Source: Fragilariopsis cylindrus CCMP1102 (taxonomy: Eukaryota > Bacillariophyta > Bacillariophyceae > Bacillariales > Bacillariaceae). Taken from it: a DNA stretch of 64,000 nucleotides. The stretch spans positions 1-64,000 of the forward strand of contig FMBT01000365.1 in assembly GCA_900095095.1 (NCBI GenBank), written 5' to 3'. The first letter of the stretch is position 1. Each line of letters opens with the position of its first letter. The position numbers and the translations under genes were made by a program. Below, piece after piece: positions 27,689 through 49,026 of the stretch. The notes below the pieces were generated by a model. That model had not been told where the DNA came from. It saw only the letters and a program-made list of their open reading frames with translations, and searched no databases.

Positions 27689-27692
27689 TTGA
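27665..27692. repeat. (TTTGA)n microsatellite
   Basis: Five to six units directly at the protease start codon. The reverse-complement repeat lies past its 3' end (29248-29293). Confidence 0.85.
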
Positions 27693-28870
27693 AGATGGAA
27701 TCTCCTCACGACGGCGACGTCGACGATAATAGTCACAATAATAACAACAATAACAGTAACGATAATAACAATAACGATAACAATAATAACGATAACAACA
27801 ACAATAACAATAATGACAATTCATACAATGAATCTGTGAAAACTTTTCTAAAATATAAAATGTCATCAGATCCAGGATATTTTGCAAAAGGATTAGAACA
27901 ACGTCATTATGAACTTTGTCAAGTATGTCCATTACGACGACAACGACAACAAGTAGAAGAAGAAGAAGAAGAAGAAGAACTTGAGCAAATTAAAAACACG
28001 TCATCATCATCATCATCATCATCATCATTATTACTACTATTAGCAGTAGGAGTACCAATACTTGTATTGCCATTACGGATTAATTTAATACGAAGTACTA
28101 TACTTGGTTGTTCTCAATCATTAAATATTAATTCTATAAAGTCTATAGTGGAACAAATAAATAATATGTATTGGATAAAACAAGCGGGGATACAATTTGA
28201 TTTAATTGATATGAAAGAACGATTCTGTACATTAGGACCAACAATTGAAAAGGATATACAACATTTTATTACACATCAATTAAAACGTGGTACTGATGGG
28301 AAAATGATGTATAAAAAAGAAAGACGTCATAAATTCTGTAATGTATTACTTTCATCTTTTTTAGACAATAAGAATAATAATGATAGCAATAAGAATAATA
28401 ATAATAATAGTAATAAGAATAAAAATGGCTTATTAGAAACAACATCAAATATATATGACATTTGGTTTATTGATATGGTCGGACAACAATCTCAAGGACA
28501 ATGTATTGATCGTACGTCACGTACAATAATTATGGGTGAACGTAGTACAAAGGGATATAAGGAACCAACGAAACGACCACATGATTGTATAGCAAAGACA
28601 GCTGCTCATGAATTAGGTCATGCCTTATTATTAAATCATCCACAAAAGGGAATGACATTTGATGATGGACGAAATCAAATTTTATTATCATCATCATCAT
28701 CATCGAAATCGAAATATAATAATAGTAGTAATAATAGTAATAGTAATAGTAGTAAAAATTTAATGAGCGGTGGTTCAGATATTAAGGGTGGGGGTGGATC
28801 ATATTTAGAACAATGGCAATGTAGTATTGCAAGAGAAGCTGCACAAATATTTCTAAACAAACACAGATAA
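27689..28870 (+). CDS. Metzincin-like zinc metalloprotease
   Basis: An intact single-exon ORF of 393 residues. The zinc-binding motif HELGHALLLNHP (HExxHxxxxxH, about residue 309) and a following NLMSGGSD, a candidate Met-turn (about 353), define a metzincin-type endopeptidase. A hydrophobic stretch (LLLLLAVGVPILVLPLRI) lies near residue 113, but the N-terminus is Asn-rich and has no signal peptide, so secretion is uncertain. Asn and Ser runs interrupt the domain, including between the zinc site and Met-turn. Upstream conserved-looking parts are LGCSQSLNINSIKSIVEQIN and DIWFIDMVGQ. Archaemetzincin or eukaryotic secreted metalloprotease groups are possible assignments. Confidence 0.75.
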   Translation: MKMESPHDGDVDDNSHNNNNNNSNDNNNNDNNNNDNNNNNNNDNSYNESVKTFLKYKMSSDPGYFAKGLEQRHYELCQVCPLRRQRQQVEEEEEEEELEQIKNTSSSSSSSSSLLLLLAVGVPILVLPLRINLIRSTILGCSQSLNINSIKSIVEQINNMYWIKQAGIQFDLIDMKERFCTLGPTIEKDIQHFITHQLKRGTDGKMMYKKERRHKFCNVLLSSFLDNKNNNDSNKNNNNNSNKNKNGLLETTSNIYDIWFIDMVGQQSQGQCIDRTSRTIIMGERSTKGYKEPTKRPHDCIAKTAAHELGHALLLNHPQKGMTFDDGRNQILLSSSSSSKSKYNNSSNNSNSNSSKNLMSGGSDIKGGGGSYLEQWQCSIAREAAQIFLNKHR

Positions 28871-29761: not shown

Positions 29762-30601
29762 TTAATTTATTATTGTTGATTGATTGGTTTCTTGTAATAT
29801 TTCATCTGTTGATAAGATTCGACAAAAACCTTTCATACCAGATAAACCTCTTTGATGTTTTTCATTGGTATGTGCTGCACATGCATCTTCTGCAACTGTT
29901 ACTAAGTACCCCAAGTCAGCAGCATCACGTACCGTCGATTCGACACATTGATCTGTTAGTTGACCACAAATAACTAATTGTTCCACAAACAAATTACGTA
30001 GTATCATATCTAAATTAGTATTCGTAGAAGAAAATGCACTACAGGCAGTTTTTGGAACAACAATATCACCACGTCCTTTACTACAATTTGGTTTTAAACA
30101 TCCATCGTAGTCATCTAAGAATATTTCATCATATGTCATAGTAACATTCGGTATATGACGAAAATATTGGCCTGATAACTTGTAATCGATACTCATATCT
30201 CGACCATCTTTCGTCAAAGATTGGATCATAACAAATATAACTTCAGGAAAACCAGTTTCGTTGATATTAGTAGTAATAGTAGTAGTAGTAGTAGGATCGT
30301 CCATAGTACAGTTGTAGGAACAATCACGTTGTTCACGAAATTGATTCAGTAAGTCTCGGATGTTTTGTTTCATTCGTGGGAGTGCTTCATCTTTATAGTA
30401 ATATTTCTTCTTTGGTGGATTTGAATTTGGATCATCATCATCATCATCATCATCTATAACAACAACAACAACAACAACATCACCATCGCAACAATACTTC
30501 TGTACGTCAATAATCAACAATGCCGATTTTGACAAAACTAATGGGAAATTATATCGATTAGAAACTCCAGCACGGATCGATTCTCTTAATGAAAGGGACA
30601 T
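29762..30601 (-). CDS. Isochorismatase-like cysteine hydrolase
   Basis: A single-exon gene of 279 residues in the isochorismatase-like hydrolase family, which includes nicotinamidases, isochorismatases and biuret/ureidoacrylate hydrolases. The triad is visible: Asp in ALLIIDVQ (about residue 32), Lys in VVPKTACSAF (about 187) and Cys in GQLTDQCVESTVRDAADLGY (about 222). Two insertions are unusual: a Val run followed by an Asp run right after the first strand, and a Thr-rich loop near residue 105. The core is otherwise complete. No leader peptide is evident, so a cytosolic location is likely. The substrate cannot be told from sequence. Confidence 0.87.
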   Translation of the reverse strand: MSLSLRESIRAGVSNRYNFPLVLSKSALLIIDVQKYCCDGDVVVVVVVIDDDDDDDDPNSNPPKKKYYYKDEALPRMKQNIRDLLNQFREQRDCSYNCTMDDPTTTTTITTNINETGFPEVIFVMIQSLTKDGRDMSIDYKLSGQYFRHIPNVTMTYDEIFLDDYDGCLKPNCSKGRGDIVVPKTACSAFSSTNTNLDMILRNLFVEQLVICGQLTDQCVESTVRDAADLGYLVTVAEDACAAHTNEKHQRGLSGMKGFCRILSTDEILQETNQSTIIN

Positions 30602-31009: not shown

Positions 31010-32293
31010 ATGATATTAGGTCCACCAACAGGTACAGGTTCTCAGAAAGAAAAAGAAGAAGGAACGGAAACAGGAATAGGAACAGAGACGACGACGACGA
31101 ACGTTCCGGAGGATGAATGGACGAGCGTGCACAAAGTACCACGGCGTCGTCGTCCACAAAGAGGGCGTCGTCGTAACCACCAAACGAAAGAAAACACTAC
31201 TTGTTCGTCGGGAGAAATTCCAAGTAAACCTTTAAAAGCAGGGTATTGGTCCTCCTCAGTATATACACAGAATAATAATAATAATAATAATAATAATAGT
31301 GACTCGATCGCGAATGAAGAAATATACAATTCATTAAATATCTGTCTCCGAGAATTGAAAGAGAGCGAATATTGGCGTAATATCAAACAATTGCTGTTAA
31401 AAATGCGACTGGACGACGACGACGTCGACGACGACGACCGCAGATACAGCAACAGCAATTGTAAATTATTTCAATCTATTGTCTGTTACGGAATTGGAAA
31501 TTTTGGTACGACGCGTTCGTCGGCTCCTTTGTGGCAATTAGCGTTGGCAGTAACGATTCGAGATTATATTAGAACTCTTCATACACATAACGACAACGAT
31601 GATGAGACCTCGTTAGAGGATGATGATCATGCTTCGTCTTCTTCTTTGAGTTCAACACTGAAATCTACATCAAATAAAAACAACGACGACGATCATCGAC
31701 GACGACGACGACGACGACGACTTCCCACTATGTACTACTTTGAACCTCTCATGACGGTAGAAGAATCAATTATACTTGAAAAATTAGACATACATATTAT
31801 CGCAGAAAATGAACGCGGTGGACGTTCGGTGATCGATGAACAAGGAGGTTGCCTATTTTTCATGCCACATTGTCCAATGACATTGTATACCAATTTACTA
31901 CACGCCAACTGGGATTGCTTAAGAGAAAATAACATACTTATATTTGGAAACTCTTTAAGTAGTTATATTGACGGTGGCGGCAACAATAGTAATAACAATA
32001 ATATTGATATAACGAATACTAATAATCCACAAAAACGGCAGGCACTCGATATCTTAAAGGACCTACAACCTCATTGGGAAGAAGAGCGATTGGATATAAG
32101 TAAGAATGATATTTCCGACAGACCAGCATATTTCGAACGAGCTTTCAATGATTCTAGTTTCACATCCTTTCGAAGAACAGTGAATATTGCTGCTGATTCT
32201 GCTACCGAAACCAAAACCCAAAACTCTTGTTGGCCAAAGCGGCCACAATTACTCGATACTTCACAAAGTGATGACGGAGGCGAGGTACTGTAG
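31010..32293 (+). CDS. SRR1: SRR1-like domain protein
   Basis: An intact ORF of 427 residues. After a basic N-terminus (KVPRRRRPQRGRRRNHQ) comes the SRR1 domain: CYGIGNFG with APLWQLALAVTIRDY (about residue 160), YYFEPLMTVEESIILEKLDI, FFMPHCPMTLYTNLLHANWD and NNILIFGNSLSSY. In plants and animals SRR1 family members affect circadian output and heme or light signalling; biochemical function remains unsettled. Asp-rich and Arg-rich runs interrupt the domain between these motifs. The C-terminal 60 residues are less conserved. Confidence 0.88.
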   Translation: MILGPPTGTGSQKEKEEGTETGIGTETTTTNVPEDEWTSVHKVPRRRRPQRGRRRNHQTKENTTCSSGEIPSKPLKAGYWSSSVYTQNNNNNNNNNSDSIANEEIYNSLNICLRELKESEYWRNIKQLLLKMRLDDDDVDDDDRRYSNSNCKLFQSIVCYGIGNFGTTRSSAPLWQLALAVTIRDYIRTLHTHNDNDDETSLEDDDHASSSSLSSTLKSTSNKNNDDDHRRRRRRRRLPTMYYFEPLMTVEESIILEKLDIHIIAENERGGRSVIDEQGGCLFFMPHCPMTLYTNLLHANWDCLRENNILIFGNSLSSYIDGGGNNSNNNNIDITNTNNPQKRQALDILKDLQPHWEEERLDISKNDISDRPAYFERAFNDSSFTSFRRTVNIAADSATETKTQNSCWPKRPQLLDTSQSDDGGEVL

Positions 32294-32495: not shown

Positions 32496-35400
32496 CTATA
32501 TATGTTTTATATGGGAGTTTTCTGTCAGATTTTGGTCTGGCCTGTGCAATAGTCTATATTGAAATTGACAGCCAGAGCTTGGAACATGGTGCACAACACA
32601 GTTTTTAATCTGGTGATCAGCTATCGAATCTGATCTAAACCATCTTGTATTGTCCAGCGTACTATTCCCCGCTTCCGTTGACTCTGGAATAGTTGTAGGA
32701 TGCACCAGAAGTATGATTCTGAACGACATTGAGTCAGTCCAATTATGCGATTGTAGCCCCTCGAGTTTACCTGAACTACAAATCATATCCCGTAGCTCTC
32801 TTTTCAATACCGAAGACACAACATCGAAAGCGTTTTTACCCGAAGAAAACGAGAGCGAAAACTGTTCAAATGTGATCATCTTGGTCTGGTCATAAATTTC
32901 AACCAGTAGCTCATCCGACCGTCTTCCCCCGCAATCGTCGTCGTTGTTGTCAAAAATAGCCGGTACGATGACTTGCAATGCTTCTCTAATGTAAGCTGCA
33001 ACACCAGGATGGCGATTAATTTTGCATTGAGCACCAATATACCGCGTCGAGCAAAATGTATCACCTGGATAAACTCTTCGACGGTAAAGTATTTGATGGA
33101 TGAAAATCTCTAATGTGTCTTTCCAGAGAGTTCGTACCGCCGATATCTCGTTGGCCGTAACTCCTTTCAAGTCTTTTCTATCTATTATTTGATTCTTTTC
33201 TAAATTCGTGTTCGAATCCTCTTCCCCGAGGATTTGTTTATTGATACTGACGCTTTGCATTCCTTCATCCTTTCCTTCATTTGTATTCCTTGCATAAGTA
33301 GATTTTCTTCGTTTCGTTTTCAAATGCGAATTATATAGCTCCGATGTCGATTTTCTTGATCGTCGATGGTTGGAAATTTTTGTTCGCGACGTGCGTTGTG
33401 ATAAAACGCCTACCTGTCGGGTGTCTTGATTAACCACCTGAAGTTTGATTTCAAGCGGAAGTTTTTCCAGCTGCGTGAGGGATATGCCTGTTCTCTCTTG
33501 ACCCGATTTTACTGCCGCTAGCTTCATCATCTTTTCAAGTCGGTTTGCAGAAACCGATTGACATAATTGGTCTCACTATTCACGACGTGGCTGATGTGTG
33601 CGTTGTTCATATTAATGCTTTCTTCTATGTCACCAGACTCCGCTTTCTTCATTCTGGAAACGATTTGTCGCTGGAGTTCGATAGGTAGCGCCTCAACCTG
33701 ACTCATATGTATTTGGCTCATTGGAGGTAATTCAATGAGTGGTGGATCATCATCCCTAAAATTGCGTCACCCGTAACGTCTTGTTCAATGTCGATTTTAT
33801 CTATCTCGTTGTTCGATTCTTCTATAAATGACAGCGTATCATTTATTACGGGAGACTCGTACACGGCTTCATCGGTTTTTTCACTTTGCTTACTCGACCT
33901 GATGTTGTGATCAACATTTCCCATATCAATACTTTTCTGTAACCAATGTTGCATCCCAGTGACATTCATTTGATTCTCGGTGGCATTATCATTTTCAAGG
34001 CTACTTATTATAATACCCATACCACGAATATCGTTAATATCTCCAATATCGAATTCTTGTAATAGACTCAGACCAACTTTCTTGAATATTTTAGCATCTC
34101 TTGTAGCTACATTCCCTGAAAGACCCCTGATTTTGGAAAGGCTGTTACAGGAGCCATGACCCAGAAATTTCGACGGCTCTGTAGACCCTTTCTTCCGCTG
34201 CTTGATCTTTAGTGTTAGTCGTTTCCCTCTGACAGAAATTCCTTCCATGCGCTTTTCAACTTCCCTAGCAAGACCTTCCATGAAATGGTCAATTCCATAC
34301 GGTCCATCAAATCTCACTCCGTAGTTGCATTCTGCTCCTATTGTCTTTCGTTCTACAGGTGTAATAGACCTATTATCCTTGCCTTGAGTGAAATCATAAA
34401 TTTTCTTACCAGTGCCGGATCCTAAGATTCGAATCAATTCGCTTTCTCCTCTCGATCCCAAATCCCATATATCCTGAACAGTCACAAGTCCTTCTTTTTC
34501 TAATTTGGTTTCTGTTCGCCGACCAATTCCATGCAAATCTCGCAGTTTCAATTCTTTTAACAGTTCTTCGTAGTCCCGGACGCAATAGGCTTTATTTGGT
34601 TTGACTTTATCCGTTCCCAACTTCGCCAAAAACTTGTTACATCCATACCAATAGACGCAGTACATTGTGTTGCGTTAAAAATTTCAGTCCGAACCGATTC
34701 TGCTAATTGAATGCGTAGTCGTATAGATTCTCCAAAACATTAGGATCATCAAAATACAGTTCTACATAAGCTTCGTCGCAGGAAACAACTTCGACATTAC
34801 CTCGATGGTTTTCTGAGGTGATCAAGCGATCTAGAATCTCTAAAACTTGCTGACTGACTTCTTCGTACCCCTTAAAGTCGTAGCTCAAGACAATAACTTC
34901 AGGACAGAGTTCCTTCGCTCGTCCTAGAAACATTCCTTTTTTGATTCCATAATTGCGGGCTACATAATTACACGTTGCACATTCTGAGGAAGAGTTCTTG
35001 GGAACATGAGTTGACTTCTCATAGGAGAGATCAAGCATGGCATTGCCATGACCATCGTCGTTGTTTTGCTCATCGTTGCCACGTTTTCCGTGATGTGAAA
35101 TGACAACAGGTTTATCACGGTATTGAGGATAGTTTCGAAGGGCAACTGCCGCAAAGAAACAATCCATATCGACGTGGAAGATGAGCCGCTTTGTATTAGA
35201 GGAATGCTTATGAGACATATTGTTGGGATGATGCGTGGATGATGTTCGTTGTTTGAAACTCCCAATGAAACTCAATCGAGAGGATGCAAAATAAGAATCA
35301 AGAAAATTTGGATCAGTACCTACGTTTCTGACTTTGCCATCGATGTATCTATTGTCCTTTCTTATCTGTCGTGTCTGGTTGCTTGAGTGTCCCTTTCTCA

Positions 35401-36821
35401 ATAACATTACCATGACCAACTTTGATTGGCGATTGATGACGAGTTGGTTCCTTCGATGAATATGGACTAAGGTAATCATTTTGATGATGTTGCTGATTAT
35501 TACGTTCCATCCCTGACTTTTCTGGTGACGAAGTTTTTGAGTATCTTTGTGAGTCTTTTTGTTTTTGAAAAATCGATTGTATTCCCATCTGTAGCTGATC
35601 CTTATGTTCAACGAGAAGATAATTCCCAAATGGCAACAGCTTTCCCTCACGAACACTATCGACAATCCATGTTGGACGACACACTGGCCTCGGTTGTTTT
35701 TGTCTCTTATAGGCCTCGGCCTTAGCCATCTTATTAAATTTTTTGGTAATTCAATTCGCGTTGAAAGGTAGTACAATTAGTTTCAAAAAAAGTGACTAAA
35801 ATGAAATTAAATAAATTGAAGATATCATACTAGTAGCGCAAAACCTTTCGTGCCAACTTACCGACAGTTGTTCTGCAATGATATGTGTAACACGCACAGT
35901 TTCGTATGTCTCGTAGTCACCACCATGCTTTTGTAGGAGACGTTTAATTGTTTCTGTATCAGGATTTGTGTAGCCAGCAACTTTCACGACGACCCCATAA
36001 AAGAATAAATCTGGTCGTGATTTTCGTAGACTTTTTGGTGAAGAAGAAGGAGAGGTGATTATTTGTGTTGTCGTTTTTTCTTCTTCGTCGATCGGAGAAG
36101 AGGCTATGGTCGATTTCGTTTGCGGTTCCTGTTGTTGTACGGAAAGATCTTTAATATATTGAACATCATGATTAGAAGAATCCTTATCATTATCATCTGC
36201 CATTGAAAACATTCTAGCCAGTTCTGTTATGCTATCTTCCTCCACTGATGGTGGGATACATGCATCATGATTTTGGTTTTCTTCCTGATCACTAGATTTT
36301 GTTTTTATTCTCTTTTTTCTCTCCAACCTTTTATTTCCTCGTCCATGACGTCTTTCTAATCGATGTATAATAGATTCCATCTTCGTTCTTTTCTTTTTCG
36401 GTCGTGAGTTTTCTATAGACTTAACACCCTCCACAAAACGTACAGTAGCAGCAGTACCATTCGTCCGGCTTCTTTTGTTATTGATATCACTAGCCGGAAA
36501 CGAAGAAATTAGATTTGAATTTTGTGTATATTTTGCAATAATTTCTGTTGCTGTTTGTGCCACCGTTGGTGTGGGCTTCATAGATCGTGATGATGTCGGA
36601 GACGACGAAGTCGTTCGGTTTGCGTCCGACGAGTCCTTAAGTGTTTCTGGTATTGGTGGTGGAGGGAGTACAAGTCCAAATTGTTCTCGTTGTCCCGCGA
36701 TTTTTAAGGCCATGTAGTTATGAAACGAATCTTCTCCAAAGGAACTACCACTGCCCGTCTTTCGACCAGCCTTTACAAGGTCGACATTCTCCGGTTGCAT
36801 CGATTTTGTGGGTTTTACCAT
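32496..36821 (-). CDS. REV1: REV1 Y-family polymerase fused to a REV7-type HORMA domain
   Basis: REV1 inserts dCMP opposite damaged bases; REV7 (MAD2B) is its HORMA partner in polymerase zeta. The N-terminus (36821 on) has a disordered region and a BRCT domain split by intron 35861-35730 (GTAAGT..AATAAG): VTHIIAEQLS joins MAKAEAYKRQ and RPTWIVDSVREGKLL. The polymerase follows: GTDPNFLDSYFASSRL, FHVDMDCFFAAVALRNYPQY, VVSCDEAYVELYF, LAKLGTDKVKPNKAY and RDLHGIGRRTE. Two ubiquitin-binding-like motifs (EALPIELQRQIV, EKLPLEIKLQVVNQ) precede the HORMA segment at about 33140-32529: FIHQILYRRRVYPGDTF, HPGVAAYIREAL. The usual REV1 C-terminal domain is not seen. The second ubiquitin motif and HORMA share one open frame. 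Five one-base frame steps interrupt the polymerase and linker. Confidence 0.85.
35730..35861 (-). other. Intron in REV1 BRCT domain
   Basis: GTAAGT donor, AATAAG acceptor, 132 nt, phase 0. Splicing rebuilds a continuous BRCT domain. Confidence 0.85.
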
Positions 36822-37244: not shown

Positions 37245-38388
37245 ATGTCATCACCAACGGCAAAACAATCCCCAACCTTCCAACTTTTCTCATCTAGCAG
37301 ACCTGTTGTCACAGCACTTTTATTGTTATTCTACAACTCCTTATTGACGCCGACGTCGACGTCGACGTATTTTATCACCGCGTTCACCCACCCATCGAAG
37401 TTGTCGTCATCGTCGTCGTGCAAAATAAGATGCAGGATACGTAAATCATTATCATCATGCAGTTCCGATCTTGATTCTACATTCGTCATCGATAACGACC
37501 AAGATAAAGCTGTGGTTGTGGTGGGGTTGCTCGAAAAGGATGATAGCGAATATATTAATTACTTGGTGGAAGAACGATCACAAGCTCGATGGCAGGGGAA
37601 TTATACAGGTGCTGATGTTTTGAGACATCAGATAACAAATTTTACCGGTATTCCCTCCGGATATGAGATATTCCTTCAAGATTTTCCTCGTAGTGTTGGT
37701 GGAAATTCAAAATGGAGTTTAGTACGTACAATGACAGGAAACGACGACGGACGACAAAACTACGACGAACAATATTTAACTAGTCCGACAGTCTTACAAC
37801 TAGCTCATGCTGCAATGGGATTTGTGATGAAAGAAAATCAACAAAAAATAGAGATAAATAATACTAAGCAACAACATCAACAACAGCTCAATAGAAATGA
37901 ATCGCTTGAGGCACTGGTGCAACAGGCAAAGAACCGATTAGAAAAGATCGAACAAGAAATGATCACACAATCGACTGATGACGATGATGACAATGATAAT
38001 GATAATGATGATGATCCGTATATAGGTTTTGGAAGATCAACAAAGAAAACAATGGTCCAGTATGAATTAGGAGGAAGAAAGGCGGCCGATGCAGCGTTTT
38101 GGTTTGCCTTATCAGGCATCAAGGATAAGGATCTATTTCATCGATTAGCTGAAATTGCCAAATGTGAGCTAAATCGTTTCGGACAACGACCATCGTGTCG
38201 AAGTAAGGATGTACATCAGATTTTAGAACGTTTTGCCGCAGCTGGATTAAGAAGCCACGAGGGTTTGGAAGCAGTTGCCCAAAAATGTCTGCTGCAGAAA
38301 CAACAACAACAACAAGATGATGATGGGCTATCGAAGATTGATAATGATATCAATGAAGTTAATCATCGAGAAAGTGCCGCTGATACCG

Positions 38389-38426
<38 letters not shown>

Positions 38427-39676
38427 CAGATCAAACATCACCAACATCAGCTAGAACACAATTACCTAAACTTGCACTCAGATCGATCCCTACTACTACT
38501 TTGGAAGTTCTCTACGAAGCAAAAGAAACAGCGAGCCTTTCTACACTCAGCTCAAAAACATTGGGAACAGTACCAAGAAACGACTACGGCTACAACACAA
38601 AAAATAGAATCAATAAGCTCAAACAAATATGAGGATGAAATACAAACCCTTTCCTCTGTTTCGACTCTCAAAGTTGGATCAAATGAAACTAACGTCGCCA
38701 TGTCTTCTTATGACTGGAATGAAATATTTGAAGACGCATCCCGTCCCTTGGTCATCGATGTCGGTTGTGGAATGGGTGTATCACTTTTGGGGTTGGCGTC
38801 TGCTTCTGATCAATCGGGTATAGAGTCGTCTCGTTTAATGTTGGGAGAAAACAATAATGGGGACGATCAAACAGAATTCTTGAAATGGTCTGATTGCAAC
38901 TTTGTCGGTGTCGATTTAGGTGCATTGGGGATTGGATATGGTCGTGGAGTAGCTCATCGCTGGAATTTGCATGGGCATCTTCATTATGCTGTTGATGCCG
39001 CCGAAGATTTCTTTCGGCATCTGCATTCATATCCAGGAGAGATTCGCTGCTGTATGGTTCAGTTTCCGACGTGAGTAAAAAAAGGAAAAGAAAGAAAAAC
39101 TCGTTCTAGCGCTGCTTTGATATATAATGTCGTTCCCTTCCTTATCTGTCGTATTTTTGTTCACTTCGTCTTCTTTAAAATGAAATAAAACGATATAGAC
39201 CATTTCGACTGCAAACAAACAAGGACGGAGGTAATTCTCAGCTCCCTACATCGAAATATGATGGCTTTATGGTGACAGAGAAACTTTTAGAATTGATCCA
39301 TTCCAATTTACATCCCAAAAGAGGGAAGTTGCTCCTACAGAGCAACTGTGAAGATGTCGCGGTGTGGATGCGGAATCTTGCTTGCCAGAAAGTAGGATTT
39401 GCTGCTATAAACGACATCGATATTGACGATAATGACATCGATGTTGTGTCATCCTATACAGACAACGAAAGCGACTTTGTGTCGTCTCAACAAAGGATCC
39501 CCCAAAGAACCGTAGATTACGTAGCAATGGGTGGAGAACGAGCCGAAGGAGGAGGTTGGTTCCAGAGGGAAATCTTGCACAGTGAAGGAGCAACTGAAAC
39601 AGAAGTAGCATGTGCCATAAATGGTACTCCTGTACATCGTTGTCTGTTGAAGGTGCAGAAAAATGACAACTTTTAA
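37245..39676 (+). CDS. Plastid TrmB-like tRNA (guanine-N7) methyltransferase with extra N-terminal domain
   Basis: Exons 37245-39070 and 39199-39676 (intron 128 nt, GTGAGT..TATAG). A signal peptide ends in FITAFTHPSK, an ASAF-like plastid site. Residues about 100-135 (LVEERSQARWQGNYTGADVL) resemble the helical segment of cysteinyl-tRNA synthetases (R..AR....Y..AD..R). A helical region follows with Gln, Asn and Ser runs. The C-terminal third is a class I methyltransferase: PLVIDVGCGMGVSLLGLA, NFVGVDLGALGIGYGRG, NLHGHLHYAVDAAEDF and VQFPTPFRL, the F-P-x-P motif of TrmB enzymes forming across the splice junction. TrmB makes m7G46 in tRNA. A plastid tRNA-modifying role is reasonable inference. 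Confidence 0.8.
39071..39198 (+). other. Intron in TrmB-like gene
   Basis: 128 nt, GTGAGT..ATATAG, phase 2; splicing forms FPTPFRLQTNKDGG. Confidence 0.9.
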
Positions 39677-44767: not shown

Positions 44768-45438
44768 ATTGATCATATTATTCAATACAGAACATAGATT
44801 TTTTTAATGAAAGATGAAAGTTATTCAATTTATTTAATACCCGTATGATGCGATGGAAATGAAAAGGTCGATGGAAGTCCATTTGAGTAATTACAGCAAT
44901 GCGATTGTATTTATTATATATTATAGATTATGTTACACGATTTTTGAATGAATATGAATAGCCTACTGAAAATATGGACGTTTCTTTTCTGTTGCCTTAT
45001 ATTATAATTATAATATTACTCAAGCCGTCATGATATTGATCCTACGTTGCAGTAGCTTTCTGATATTATATTCCATATCCTATCACCACATGTTGTACTT
45101 CTTTAGAGCTGAGCGTTTTTAATACTGTAGGTAAAAGTAGTGCAGTATATCTTCCGGTAAAAGGTTTTAGTAGAGTAGAGAATATATCATTGTATTCAAA
45201 AGTAGGTAAATAATATCTACTATTTTTATGGTTATCTTAATTTTAGATGAATGATACGATATGTTCCTTCTGAGCCAATTGTATTGGTATTGAATGGAGA
45301 ATTATGCAAGAACTTGGTGCACATCATGGTTACTTTGTGTGTGGAGTGAAGAAGATTATTATTATTGGTGTTGTTGGTGTTGGCCTGTCAAACTTGCCTT
45401 CTTTTGCACTACTAACCATTCAGCATCTCTACTACTAA

Positions 45439-45485
<47 letters not shown>

Positions 45486-45822
45486 ATATATTTCTTCTTC
45501 CTTCTCCCTCACAATTATAGAGACAGTGAATTGAAATATAATTGTAGAATACCTTCAGAGCAGCAGCAACTAAGATGAGAGAGACCTCTCTCGCTCCTAT
45601 TGTGTCGTCTGTCCGCTATCCGTTCCGATTTTTACCACAGAAATCATCTCTTTTCAATCGCATTGAATAAAAGAACAAAATTTACAATTCAAAAGAGATA
45701 ACTTCTTATTAAGTTACCGTTAGATCTTCTTTTGAATTTCGAATTCGAGAATGGTGATACGATAGATAATAGATAAAATCGTTACACAGACAAAAAACTG
45801 ACAGTTGTAATTAACTTCTTTC
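44768..45822. other. Spacer with CT microsatellite
   Basis: About 1050 nt. The only marked element is the (CT)n run at about 45441-45482, followed by TATATA, some 340 nt upstream of the next start codon. Confidence 0.5.
45441..45482. repeat. (CT)n microsatellite
   Basis: Twenty-one uninterrupted CT units, then TATATATA. Confidence 0.95.
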
Positions 45823-47001
45823 TTGAACACAACGATGGCGATTCGCATGTTGGATTCGTCCGCTATTTTTCTGTTGGCGACAATCTATTATTACTATACC
45901 ACTGATGCTTACATGCCCGCTTACAAGAACGTTAAGCACAACAACAGCATAAGACGACACAATTTTCCTACATTTATCTCAGCCGTCCCTCGGTACGGTC
46001 CTACAGATAGTAGCAGCAATAATGATAGCTCAAATAATGATTCTCTAGAATCACCTGAAGAAGGAGCACCGTCGCCGAATAATGACAATAATAATGCTAA
46101 CGACGTCAAAATAATAAAAATCAAAGAAGACTTTCGAGATCTTGTAGAAAGTGTAATGCAAATATCTCAAGCAGAACTTATACCAAGACTATTAGTGAAT
46201 AACATTGAATTGATTATGGGATTACAAGGAGAAGAAGGAACACAAGTTATTTCTAGCTTATTGGAAGATGCCAAGAAGACGAAGGAAACGGCGACGACGA
46301 TGACAACAATTATAAATAATGATGATGACGACGATGATGATGATGATGATGATGATGATAGTTACTACTCTCAAACTATTCAGACTGTAGAGATGATATT
46401 AACATTTGCAGAAGACTTTGTTAAGGAAGCACAGAATATGGATAAAAATAATAAAAGTCTTCTGGGTAAAATATTGAAGGCTATGGTTAATTCAGATAAT
46501 GATACATCCATTTCTGGAGGAGAAGGAAACAAAGAAGAGTTGTCAGCAATAGGTGCTAGAAGTAGAGAAGAAGCATTAGATAAAGTTATGAAAGAAGAAA
46601 AGGCAAATTTTACAACAGGATTTCTTCGACATCTCGAAGGGGAATGTAATCGAATTGAAAATGCACAAGGAATGACACCAGAAAGTACAAAATTACTTGA
46701 AATTTTACGATTGGTCCAAACTCGCGTATTAGAGGAATTAGGTCAAGATCTCGGAGAAGCTGCCTTAGTCTTAGGACAGCTGATGGGATACGATAAGGAA
46801 GAAGAATTATTAGGTGTCCTTGAGGCAGGTTTAACAGTTCAGGGTAGAGATTTTGCACTAGAGATGGCAAGTCTAACAGAAGAAGCATTAGATGGGTTCA
46901 AAAGAATACCGGGTGGAGCTGATCCAGAATTAGTGGAAAAGGTGAACTTTATTGACAAAAGATTACAAGAATACCTGAACGAAACAAGTGAATTCCAATA
47001 G
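45823..47001 (+). CDS. Secreted or plastid helical protein of unknown function
   Basis: An intact ORF of 392 residues. A second Met (45835) begins a better signal peptide (MLDSSAIFLLATIYYYYTTDAYMPAY). After Asn/Ser and Asp runs the protein is almost wholly helical, and the C-terminal 140 residues look well conserved: RHLEGECNRIENAQGMTPES, LEILRLVQTRVLEELGQDLG, ALVLGQLMGYDKEEELLGVL and GLTVQGRDFALEMASLTEEA. I believe similar regions occur in plastid proteins of algae and plants but cannot name the family. No catalytic motif is seen. Confidence 0.65.
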   Translation: MNTTMAIRMLDSSAIFLLATIYYYYTTDAYMPAYKNVKHNNSIRRHNFPTFISAVPRYGPTDSSSNNDSSNNDSLESPEEGAPSPNNDNNNANDVKIIKIKEDFRDLVESVMQISQAELIPRLLVNNIELIMGLQGEEGTQVISSLLEDAKKTKETATTMTTIINNDDDDDDDDDDDDDSYYSQTIQTVEMILTFAEDFVKEAQNMDKNNKSLLGKILKAMVNSDNDTSISGGEGNKEELSAIGARSREEALDKVMKEEKANFTTGFLRHLEGECNRIENAQGMTPESTKLLEILRLVQTRVLEELGQDLGEAALVLGQLMGYDKEEELLGVLEAGLTVQGRDFALEMASLTEEALDGFKRIPGGADPELVEKVNFIDKRLQEYLNETSEFQ

Positions 47002-47111
47002 GGAGAGAGGTTTTCTGAACGATCACGAATTCCGAATTTGTACGATAAATAACATACATGAATCGAATCGAATCATTAAGTAAATTTTCAGTAATTAATT
47101 ACTATTATGAT

Positions 47112-47900
47112 TTATATTGCTTTAATCTTCCCCAAGATCTCTTTCACGACATTATTCGCATTGTCTTCAATAGGATCATTACCATCGAGGATGATATGGG
47201 GGAATGTAACAGGATTAAATTCCCATTCACTCATATCTTTTTCTTCGTTGGTGGTAGTGTCAACCTCCTCCTCCTTCTTCTTCTTATCAGGTGTATCTCC
47301 CTTATAAAAATGACCTTCTCGTGCATTAATCCGTTTCGTACATTCTTCCTCAGTTGTATCAATTAAGATCCATTCTGCTTTAGGAAATCGTTCTCTAAAT
47401 ATATCTCGTAAGTCTGTATTAACAAAGCTGAATGATATAATAGCCGATAAATTAAAATCTTTCTGCTGTTGTTTTTGTTGTTGACACTTTAATAATTTCT
47501 CATCTAATTGCTTTTCAACGTAATCACACGCACCTGATGCAAATACACTTCGTTCCTTTAAAGATGGATATATGCCCTTGCCGAAGTTATCTTTCATTCC
47601 TTGTGAGATGCATACGTCAAGATCCAACTCAATACATTGTTGATGTTTATTGTTTTTGTTATTATCGAGAGATAGAGATTCAAAAGCTTTATTAGCTACG
47701 GTTGTTTTACCAGAACCTGGTCTTCCAAATACGATAAATAACGACGAACTTTTCATGGGTTGTAAAGCGTCAATTGTTTTAATTTGGTGTGATAAATTAA
47801 AAATTGTTCCACAAATAATGAAAATACGTATTATGAACGACGACGACGACGACGACGACATTATTAATGGCGATGACGACGATCGCAAGAAGATATCCAT
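47112..47900 (-). CDS. P-loop kinase, gluconokinase/shikimate-kinase-like
   Basis: A single-exon gene of 262 residues. After a hydrophobic leader (FIIRIFIICGTIFNL..IDAL) comes a Walker A motif, IVFGRPGSGKTTVANKAF (about residue 56), then ELDLDVCISQGMKDNFGKGI. A lid-like WILIDTTEEECTKRINAREGHFYK (shown here in part by TTEEECTKRINAREG and HFYK) matches small-molecule kinases of the gluconokinase or AAA_33 type. It ends in VTFPHIILDGNDPIEDN. Gln, Lys and Glu runs are inserted. The true start may be the Met before KSSSLFIVFG; the longer form would be organelle-targeted or membrane-anchored. The substrate is unresolved. Confidence 0.7.
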   Translation of the reverse strand: MDIFLRSSSSPLIMSSSSSSSFIIRIFIICGTIFNLSHQIKTIDALQPMKSSSLFIVFGRPGSGKTTVANKAFESLSLDNNKNNKHQQCIELDLDVCISQGMKDNFGKGIYPSLKERSVFASGACDYVEKQLDEKLLKCQQQKQQQKDFNLSAIISFSFVNTDLRDIFRERFPKAEWILIDTTEEECTKRINAREGHFYKGDTPDKKKKEEEVDTTTNEEKDMSEWEFNPVTFPHIILDGNDPIEDNANNVVKEILGKIKAI

Positions 47901-48428
47901 TTCGTTTTATACAGACGAGTGAAGCGTACACAAATAGATTCACGGAAGATCCCGAGATTTGGCTACTGATCGCTACTGCTACGTGTGTAATGCAATATGA
48001 TAGTGAGCATTGCAAGAGTGTGAAGTGCCAATCTAATAATACTGTACAATTGAAGCCATAATAACTTGGTCAAATAGCATCACACTCTCATTATCCTCAG
48101 TAATTCAAAGCAATGGATTTTGTGCAGGCACCCGGAATTAGAATGGCGAAAAAGGGGCGCTCGGCGAAATAAGGAAATAAGGGGGTCAAATAATGCGAAG
48201 GTATTTAGTATTGATGTATTTATAATTTATACATTCATATTCAATATTATATATGCTGCATAAATGCATTTATTGAATCCACCAGACAGTACAATTAGCA
48301 ACTGTAGAAAAAAATCGGGAATTCACTTGATTGGATAGTTAAAAGAACACATTATTATTTTGATATATATTTTTAAAGTACTACCAACACCACTAACTAT
48401 TACTCAAAAGTTTGTATGTGTGTGTGTG

Positions 48429-48505
<77 letters not shown>

Positions 48506-49026
48506 ATTATTAATCTACCTACTATTGAAAGGAAGGTGGACTTTCTCCTGCTAGCTAACAAGCAAGATATTCGTGTCAATTATAGACAGCTATGAAGGGG
48601 AAGTAATACCAATAAAACGTTGATAAAGTTTTAGGGCATAGGAGAAAAAAATCACCATAACTATGGAATATCAGCAAGATCCAATGCTGCTGAATTACAT
48701 TTGTTGCGTAGCCATAAAAGGCAAGCATCTTCTCACGGCATTCCACCACTAGTGGAAGTTAATTTAATGCTAGCTAGGGATGGAATATTATTTAAAGAGG
48801 AACGATATTATGTTAGGGTAGCGATTTACTTGGAATGCTAAAGATCTCATTGTGAAACAATCTATATGATATTTTTAATGTTGAAAATCTGGTGGCAGAG
48901 GTTTCTATAGTCATAGTACTGAATAATGACAACGACGACGACGAGACTCGAATCAATATCACAATCAATCGCATAACAGCCAACGACAGCAACCATCAAA
49001 AGAAATTGGAAGGCCACCGTCCTCCT
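47901..49026. other. Spacer with GT/TA microsatellites
   Basis: About 1100 nt between two minus-strand genes. A (TG)n and (TA)n compound run lies at 48417-48500. A GC-richer patch sits at 48130-48170. No gene is supported. Confidence 0.5.
48417..48500. repeat. Compound (TG)n/(TA)n microsatellite
   Basis: Alternating TG and TA blocks, ending in about 15 TA units then TTA repeats. Confidence 0.95.

Follow-up and report, generated by a model that had tools for sequence, protein, structure and literature searches.

A probable natural fusion of REV1 with a REV7-type HORMA domain in one lineage of Bacillariaceae diatoms

The window, a stretch of 64,000 nucleotides of Fragilariopsis cylindrus DNA (contig C564), carries on its reverse strand a REV1-type gene whose predicted product ends in a REV7-type HORMA domain (Table 1). 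The gene spans about 32496-36821 once its first exon is included; the preliminary description had placed it at 32496-34665, a segment that does lie inside the gene but falls short of its full extent. Exon 1 terminates in ...AEQLS, and both its start and its end match the database protein P0003, a relative considered below. Its 3′ end encodes the first part of the BRCT domain, which is present as a whole in P0003 (Pfam BRCT_2, E 3.2e-08). Exon 2 of the allelic contig C35 is a 1078-aa frame in which the end of the BRCT domain, the polymerase, two ubiquitin-binding motif (UBM)-like motifs, a linker and a REV7-type HORMA domain follow one another. Pfam assigned IMS to residues 186-373 of this frame (E 3.8e-40) and also matched IMS_C in it (E 1.1e-10). 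The two motifs were recognised by eye from the LP-type pattern of UBMs, and we take them to be UBM-like; Pfam UBM had no match in C35 and at most sub-threshold matches in the relatives. In the window itself, a 344-aa open frame at 32496-33530 (- strand) comprises the UBM2-like motif, the linker and the HORMA domain, so that these elements share one frame, as had been stated. The further claim, that the REV1 polymerase frame continues into the HORMA domain, holds for C35 but not for the window copy, where 33718-34665 is another frame. Elsewhere in the window we noticed by eye an open frame resembling a metalloprotease, with a HELGHALLLNH-type motif (27689-28870, + strand), and one resembling an isochorismatase-like hydrolase (29762-30601, - strand).

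Table 1. Positions, in window coordinates, of the parts of the REV1-REV7 gene
Feature	Position	Strand	Evidence and remarks
REV1 exon 1: N-terminal region and beginning of BRCT; 320 aa, starting at MVKP	35862-36821	-	Pfam BRCT E 5.7e-06; 960 bases, open
Intron, 132 bases, GTAAGT...AAG, in-frame stops inside	35730-35861	-	P0003 crosses the site as ...EQLS/MAKA...
REV1-REV7 exon 2	32496-35729	-	1078 aa, single open frame in allele C35; five one-base breaks in window copy
Y-family polymerase catalytic part (IMS, PF00817)	34612-35173 (approximate; two frame breaks near its end)	-	Pfam
IMS_HHH and IMS_C (little finger) part	33979-34575	-	Pfam IMS_C E 3.9e-11
First ubiquitin-binding-like motif, MSQVEALPIELQRQIVSRM	33650-33706	-	By sequence; in frame in C35
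Second ubiquitin-binding-like motif, ISLTQLEKLPLEIKLQVVNQD	33423-33485	-	By sequence
Variable linker between REV1 and REV7 parts	33156-33422	-	Identity to C35 lowest among parts compared
REV7-type HORMA domain in place of REV1 C-terminal domain	32541-33155	-	PDB search, profile, HMM, alignment

The affiliation of the HORMA domain was assessed by several comparisons. When the 344-aa frame was searched against the PDB, all 16 matches at E <= 1 were to REV7 (best E 5.9e-05), namely 13 MAD2B entries, two engineered constructs with hREV7 and one Pol zeta processivity subunit (6v8p, E 0.033). A profile of the domain and its relatives matched MAD2B at E 3.6e-07, in line with the REV7 character first reported for the domain. 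Both the profile match and the PDB alignments fall largely within the first third of the domain; its C-terminal part can be aligned with stand-alone diatom REV7s. All 14 of the aligned proteins retain the equivalents of Y37 and Y63 (human REV7 numbering), together with one tryptophan that we place at human W171. Pfam HORMA matched the frame weakly (E 0.008, under its cut-off), and MAD2 is encoded separately in this genome, on C537. These sequence comparisons place the domain nearer to REV7 than to MAD2.

Related REV1 proteins with a C-terminal HORMA domain were then looked for, using the HORMA part of the C35 frame as the query and restricting the candidates to the length of the whole protein. 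Four of the 641 long candidates matched (P0001, P0002, P0003 and P0004), and all four were REV1-HORMA fusions. Identities to C35 within the HORMA domain were 100% (P0001), 87-88.3% (P0002), 73-73.7% (P0003) and 57-57.5% (P0004). For P0002, P0003 and P0004, respectively, the polymerase core was 93.7%, 82.0% and 73.1% identical to that of C35, and the linker 85.9%, 61.2% and 37.3%; in this sequence set, the HORMA domain is conserved less than the polymerase and clearly more than the linker. P0002 is labelled in its source as DNA repair protein REV1 from a MAG of Bacillariaceae sp., and P0004 is incomplete, starting towards the end of the polymerase. In P0003, which has 1375 aa and comes from a contig of 4203 bases, the BRCT domain is complete; the protein reads as a spliced transcript or an intron-less gene would, because the two BRCT halves are joined exactly at the site of the 132-base intron. 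The viral_contigs scan found no relative.

To place these proteins among other REV1s, we used the polymerase part as a query, which gave 223 relatives, and examined the best 120 of these with HMMs of diatom REV1 C-terminal domains and of stand-alone REV7s. Among these best 120 of 223, the C-terminal domain was found in 78 (13 of which had served as seeds of the C-terminal-domain HMM), the HORMA domain in 4, both in none and neither in 38. Of the last group, 31 proteins had no listed IMS_C and for that reason probably stop before the C-terminal region, while the remaining 7 had IMS_C. In the alignment, the HORMA domain occupies the position of the C-terminal domain, after UBM2 and the variable linker. 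Searches of this genome with Pfam REV1_C and with one Pseudo-nitzschia-type domain, for which it offered no positive control, found no REV1 C-terminal domain. Pfam REV1_C had no match to the Pseudo-nitzschia-type domain in the five proteins scanned (P0005, P0008, P0010, P0011 and P0013), and a profile of that domain had no match in the PDB; it is identified as a REV1 C-terminal domain because the HMM marks the site at which Pfam REV1_C matches Chaetoceros P0081 (at the cut-off) and P0054 (above it). The C-terminal domain, reported at the outset as not seen, is absent from all four fused proteins, was not found in the genome and is present in the sister REV1s described below. REV7 seems, from the alignment, to have replaced the very domain that binds REV7. 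By eye, several of the Pseudo-nitzschia-type REV1s (P0005-P0013) have an extra UBM1-like block (LPPMSQI.M.QVEALP) and hence three UBM-like motifs, not two.

A tree of 42 diatom REV1s, built on the region extending to just past UBM2, grouped the four fused proteins into one clade (99/98) that branches inside diatom REV1. Its sister consists of 11 REV1s, including three named Pseudo-nitzschia (100/99), none of which has the HORMA domain; nine have the C-terminal domain (partial in P0007), and P0006 and P0014 have neither. In the REV7 tree, which we chose to root on P0129, the fused HORMA domains also form one clade (99/99), beside eight stand-alone REV7s (97/92), which include a protein of the genome coded Psemu1, read here as Pseudo-nitzschia multiseries. 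The simplest reading of the two trees would be one fusion, after the split from the Pseudo-nitzschia-type REV1s, of REV1 with the stand-alone REV7 orthologue. The window species is provisionally placed in the fused lineage by these REV1 and REV7 trees alone.

A fused gene might nevertheless give rise to free REV7, whether from an internal promoter or start, through alternative splicing or by proteolytic cleavage in the linker, in which case the tether would not be permanent. Conservation is lowest in the linker, and three sequences (those of the window allele, P0002 and P0003) have in-frame Met codons between UBM2 and the HORMA domain. However, the stretch from UBM2 to the first HORMA helix is free of in-frame Met codons in C35 and P0001, the only Met of P0004 in this region lies inside that helix, and P0003 reads like one mRNA. 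The separate start between UBM2 and HORMA that the preliminary description had envisaged as a way of dissociating the two parts is therefore excluded, as far as an internal AUG in the linker is concerned, for C35 and P0001 alone. We regard the production of free REV7 from the fused gene as unlikely. The linker was also considered as the site of a closure motif for the HORMA domain, since a VLSP...P stretch in P0003 and P0004 slightly resembles a REV7-binding motif. P0001 and P0002 have no prolines there, the stretch is also found in unfused REV1s, and the candidate was dropped.

Alternatively, an ordinary second REV7 could exist, missing from the assembly or too divergent, with the fused copy having another role. 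The assembly may be incomplete, and the genome was searched with single proteins as queries, namely the window frame, the stand-alone P0121 and the divergent P0129. None of the three found a separate REV7 gene in this genome, consistent with the proposed fusion. The window frame and P0121 matched the fused locus alone, on both haplotypes. P0129 gave 37 matches, of which 4 were at the fused locus and 33 fell within its residues 152-344 (an acidic insert and the part that follows); the two best of these 33 proved not to be HORMA when examined with the REV7 HMM and low-complexity masking. The protein search, moreover, yielded nine stand-alone REV7-like proteins, all of which fall outside the fused clade. 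Pfam HORMA finds only MAD2 across the genome, which is not a sensitive test because it missed the fused HORMA domain too. On these searches, a second, hidden REV7 appears quite improbable.

The genome does encode REV3, since the best PDB match of a frame on C324 is the Pol zeta catalytic subunit (E 3.1e-91). We found no strict match to REV7-binding motifs in the REV3 frame and four relaxed ones, not above chance by a rough estimate, and a 73-residue stretch of REV3 that looked suggestive gave nothing relevant when searched against the PDB. Between the N-terminal and polymerase parts of REV3 (L023:982-6624, - strand) are two short sequences similar to each other, STPSMNEAISAL and CPPSVHEAIDAL, which are reminiscent of the tail of the human REV7-binding motifs. 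Two other Y-family polymerase frames contain FF motifs, which by eye are PIP-like and uninformative.

In the window copy, two frame breaks separate the polymerase frame from the HORMA frame, and there are five in all within exon 2. The window allele might then be decaying and the fused gene being lost, and the neighbouring genes at 31010-32293 and 37245-39074 (both + strand) have no net frame break relative to C35. However, all five breaks (33530-35360) are one-base length differences in short homopolymers, typical of consensus error, and the frame is open in C35 and in P0001-P0004; we regard this reading as very improbable. C35 is 98% identical to the window over the gene and is collinear with it also at window positions 45001-49000 (94%). 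P0001 is near-identical to C35, with 99% identity over the polymerase part, and has a source other than contig C35, because the longest contig of that source is 12,287 bases. The HORMA differences between the two alleles (6 synonymous, 3 non-synonymous) are too few for selection between them to be inferred. That an assembly error put two adjacent genes, or a chance frame, together is hardly credible: the window copy does have indel differences, but these destroy the fusion frame rather than create it, and a single frame is kept across the UBM2-to-HORMA stretch (111-132 residues) in C35 and the four database proteins, which contradicts such an artefact.

Taken together, we think it likely that a natural REV1-REV7 gene fusion exists in one Bacillariaceae lineage, with REV7 where the C-terminal domain stood and a proposed role as a tether for REV3/Pol zeta. 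The fusion interpretation of the preliminary description is supported in that related fusions exist, no separate REV7 was found and the C-terminal domain is absent. A full-text literature search, with preprints and most subscription papers outside its reach, found no published REV1-REV7 fusion.

The REV1 C-terminal domain has been described as a hub of the bypass machinery and a drug target; one of its faces binds REV7, and the opposite one the RIR motifs found in other polymerases and in POLD3 (PMC11276120, PMC8468184). The safety belt of REV7 closes on REV3 motifs, with Y37 and Y63 of human REV7 contacting REV3, and this closure creates the site for the REV1 C-terminal domain (PMC11276120, PMC8468184). 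Human and yeast Pol zeta bind two REV7s (PMC11276120), and yeast Pol zeta has been suggested to bind Rev1 1:1 via one of its two Rev7s (PMC11276120, PMC8468184). The predicted fusion product, of ~1400 residues, would consist of BRCT, a Y-family polymerase, two ubiquitin-binding-like motifs, a flexible linker and REV7. It would dock on (ubiquitylated) PCNA through BRCT and the UBM-like motifs, and the safety belt of the tethered HORMA domain would close on REV3. Pol zeta would thereby be brought to the lesion directly by the fusion, without the REV1-CTD/REV7 contact, and REV3 would not have to be bound before REV1. From the sequences, a normally separable REV1-REV7 contact appears to have become permanent. 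We infer that the gene is expressed here as one protein, that its tethered HORMA domain binds REV3 and that RIR-based recruitment of other polymerases should be lost, because the C-terminal domain needed for it is missing. Each polymerase would carry one REV7, and if Pol zeta requires a pair of REV7s, each REV3 would be expected to have two fusion proteins.

We lean slightly towards a stronger version, in which these diatoms have no free REV7, REV1 carries every REV7 function, RIR recruitment has been abandoned and REV1 and Pol zeta form an obligate covalent unit containing one or two REV1s for each REV3. If this is true, a regulated, REV3-triggered handover has been turned into an obligate covalent unit, and the REV7 functions at stake are that of Pol zeta cofactor and any checkpoint or break-repair role. 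The lineage would offer a natural experiment in which the C-terminal domain is exchanged for its own ligand and the REV7 link (the tether) is separated from RIR-based polymerase choice (presumably lost). Where REV7 cannot leave REV1, one may also ask whether its release, its dimerisation and its functions beyond lesion bypass are required.

The fused proteins have BRCT, Y-family polymerase and, as judged by eye, UBM-like motifs in the same order as canonical REV1 (human, yeast; unfused diatom P0005 and P0008), but carry a HORMA domain where canonical REV1 has the C-terminal domain that binds REV7 and RIR motifs. Stand-alone REV7/MAD2B (P0121-P0128; human MAD2L2) likewise has a HORMA domain that retains the counterparts of Y37 and Y63, but is a separate small protein, whereas here REV7 is joined N-terminally to REV1 (C35, P0001-P0004). 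In the REV1-CTD/REV7/REV3 assembly as described (PMC11276120, PMC8468184), the partners and their functional link are those seen here; that assembly is non-covalent and forms after REV3 binding, whereas the fusion would use a peptide tether and lacks the RIR-binding face of the CTD. The FANCM-XPF fusion reported for chytrid fungi (PMC11061109) likewise unites two DNA-repair partners in one protein, although these partners, FANCM and the XPF endonuclease, and their pathway step are unrelated to those of REV1-REV7.
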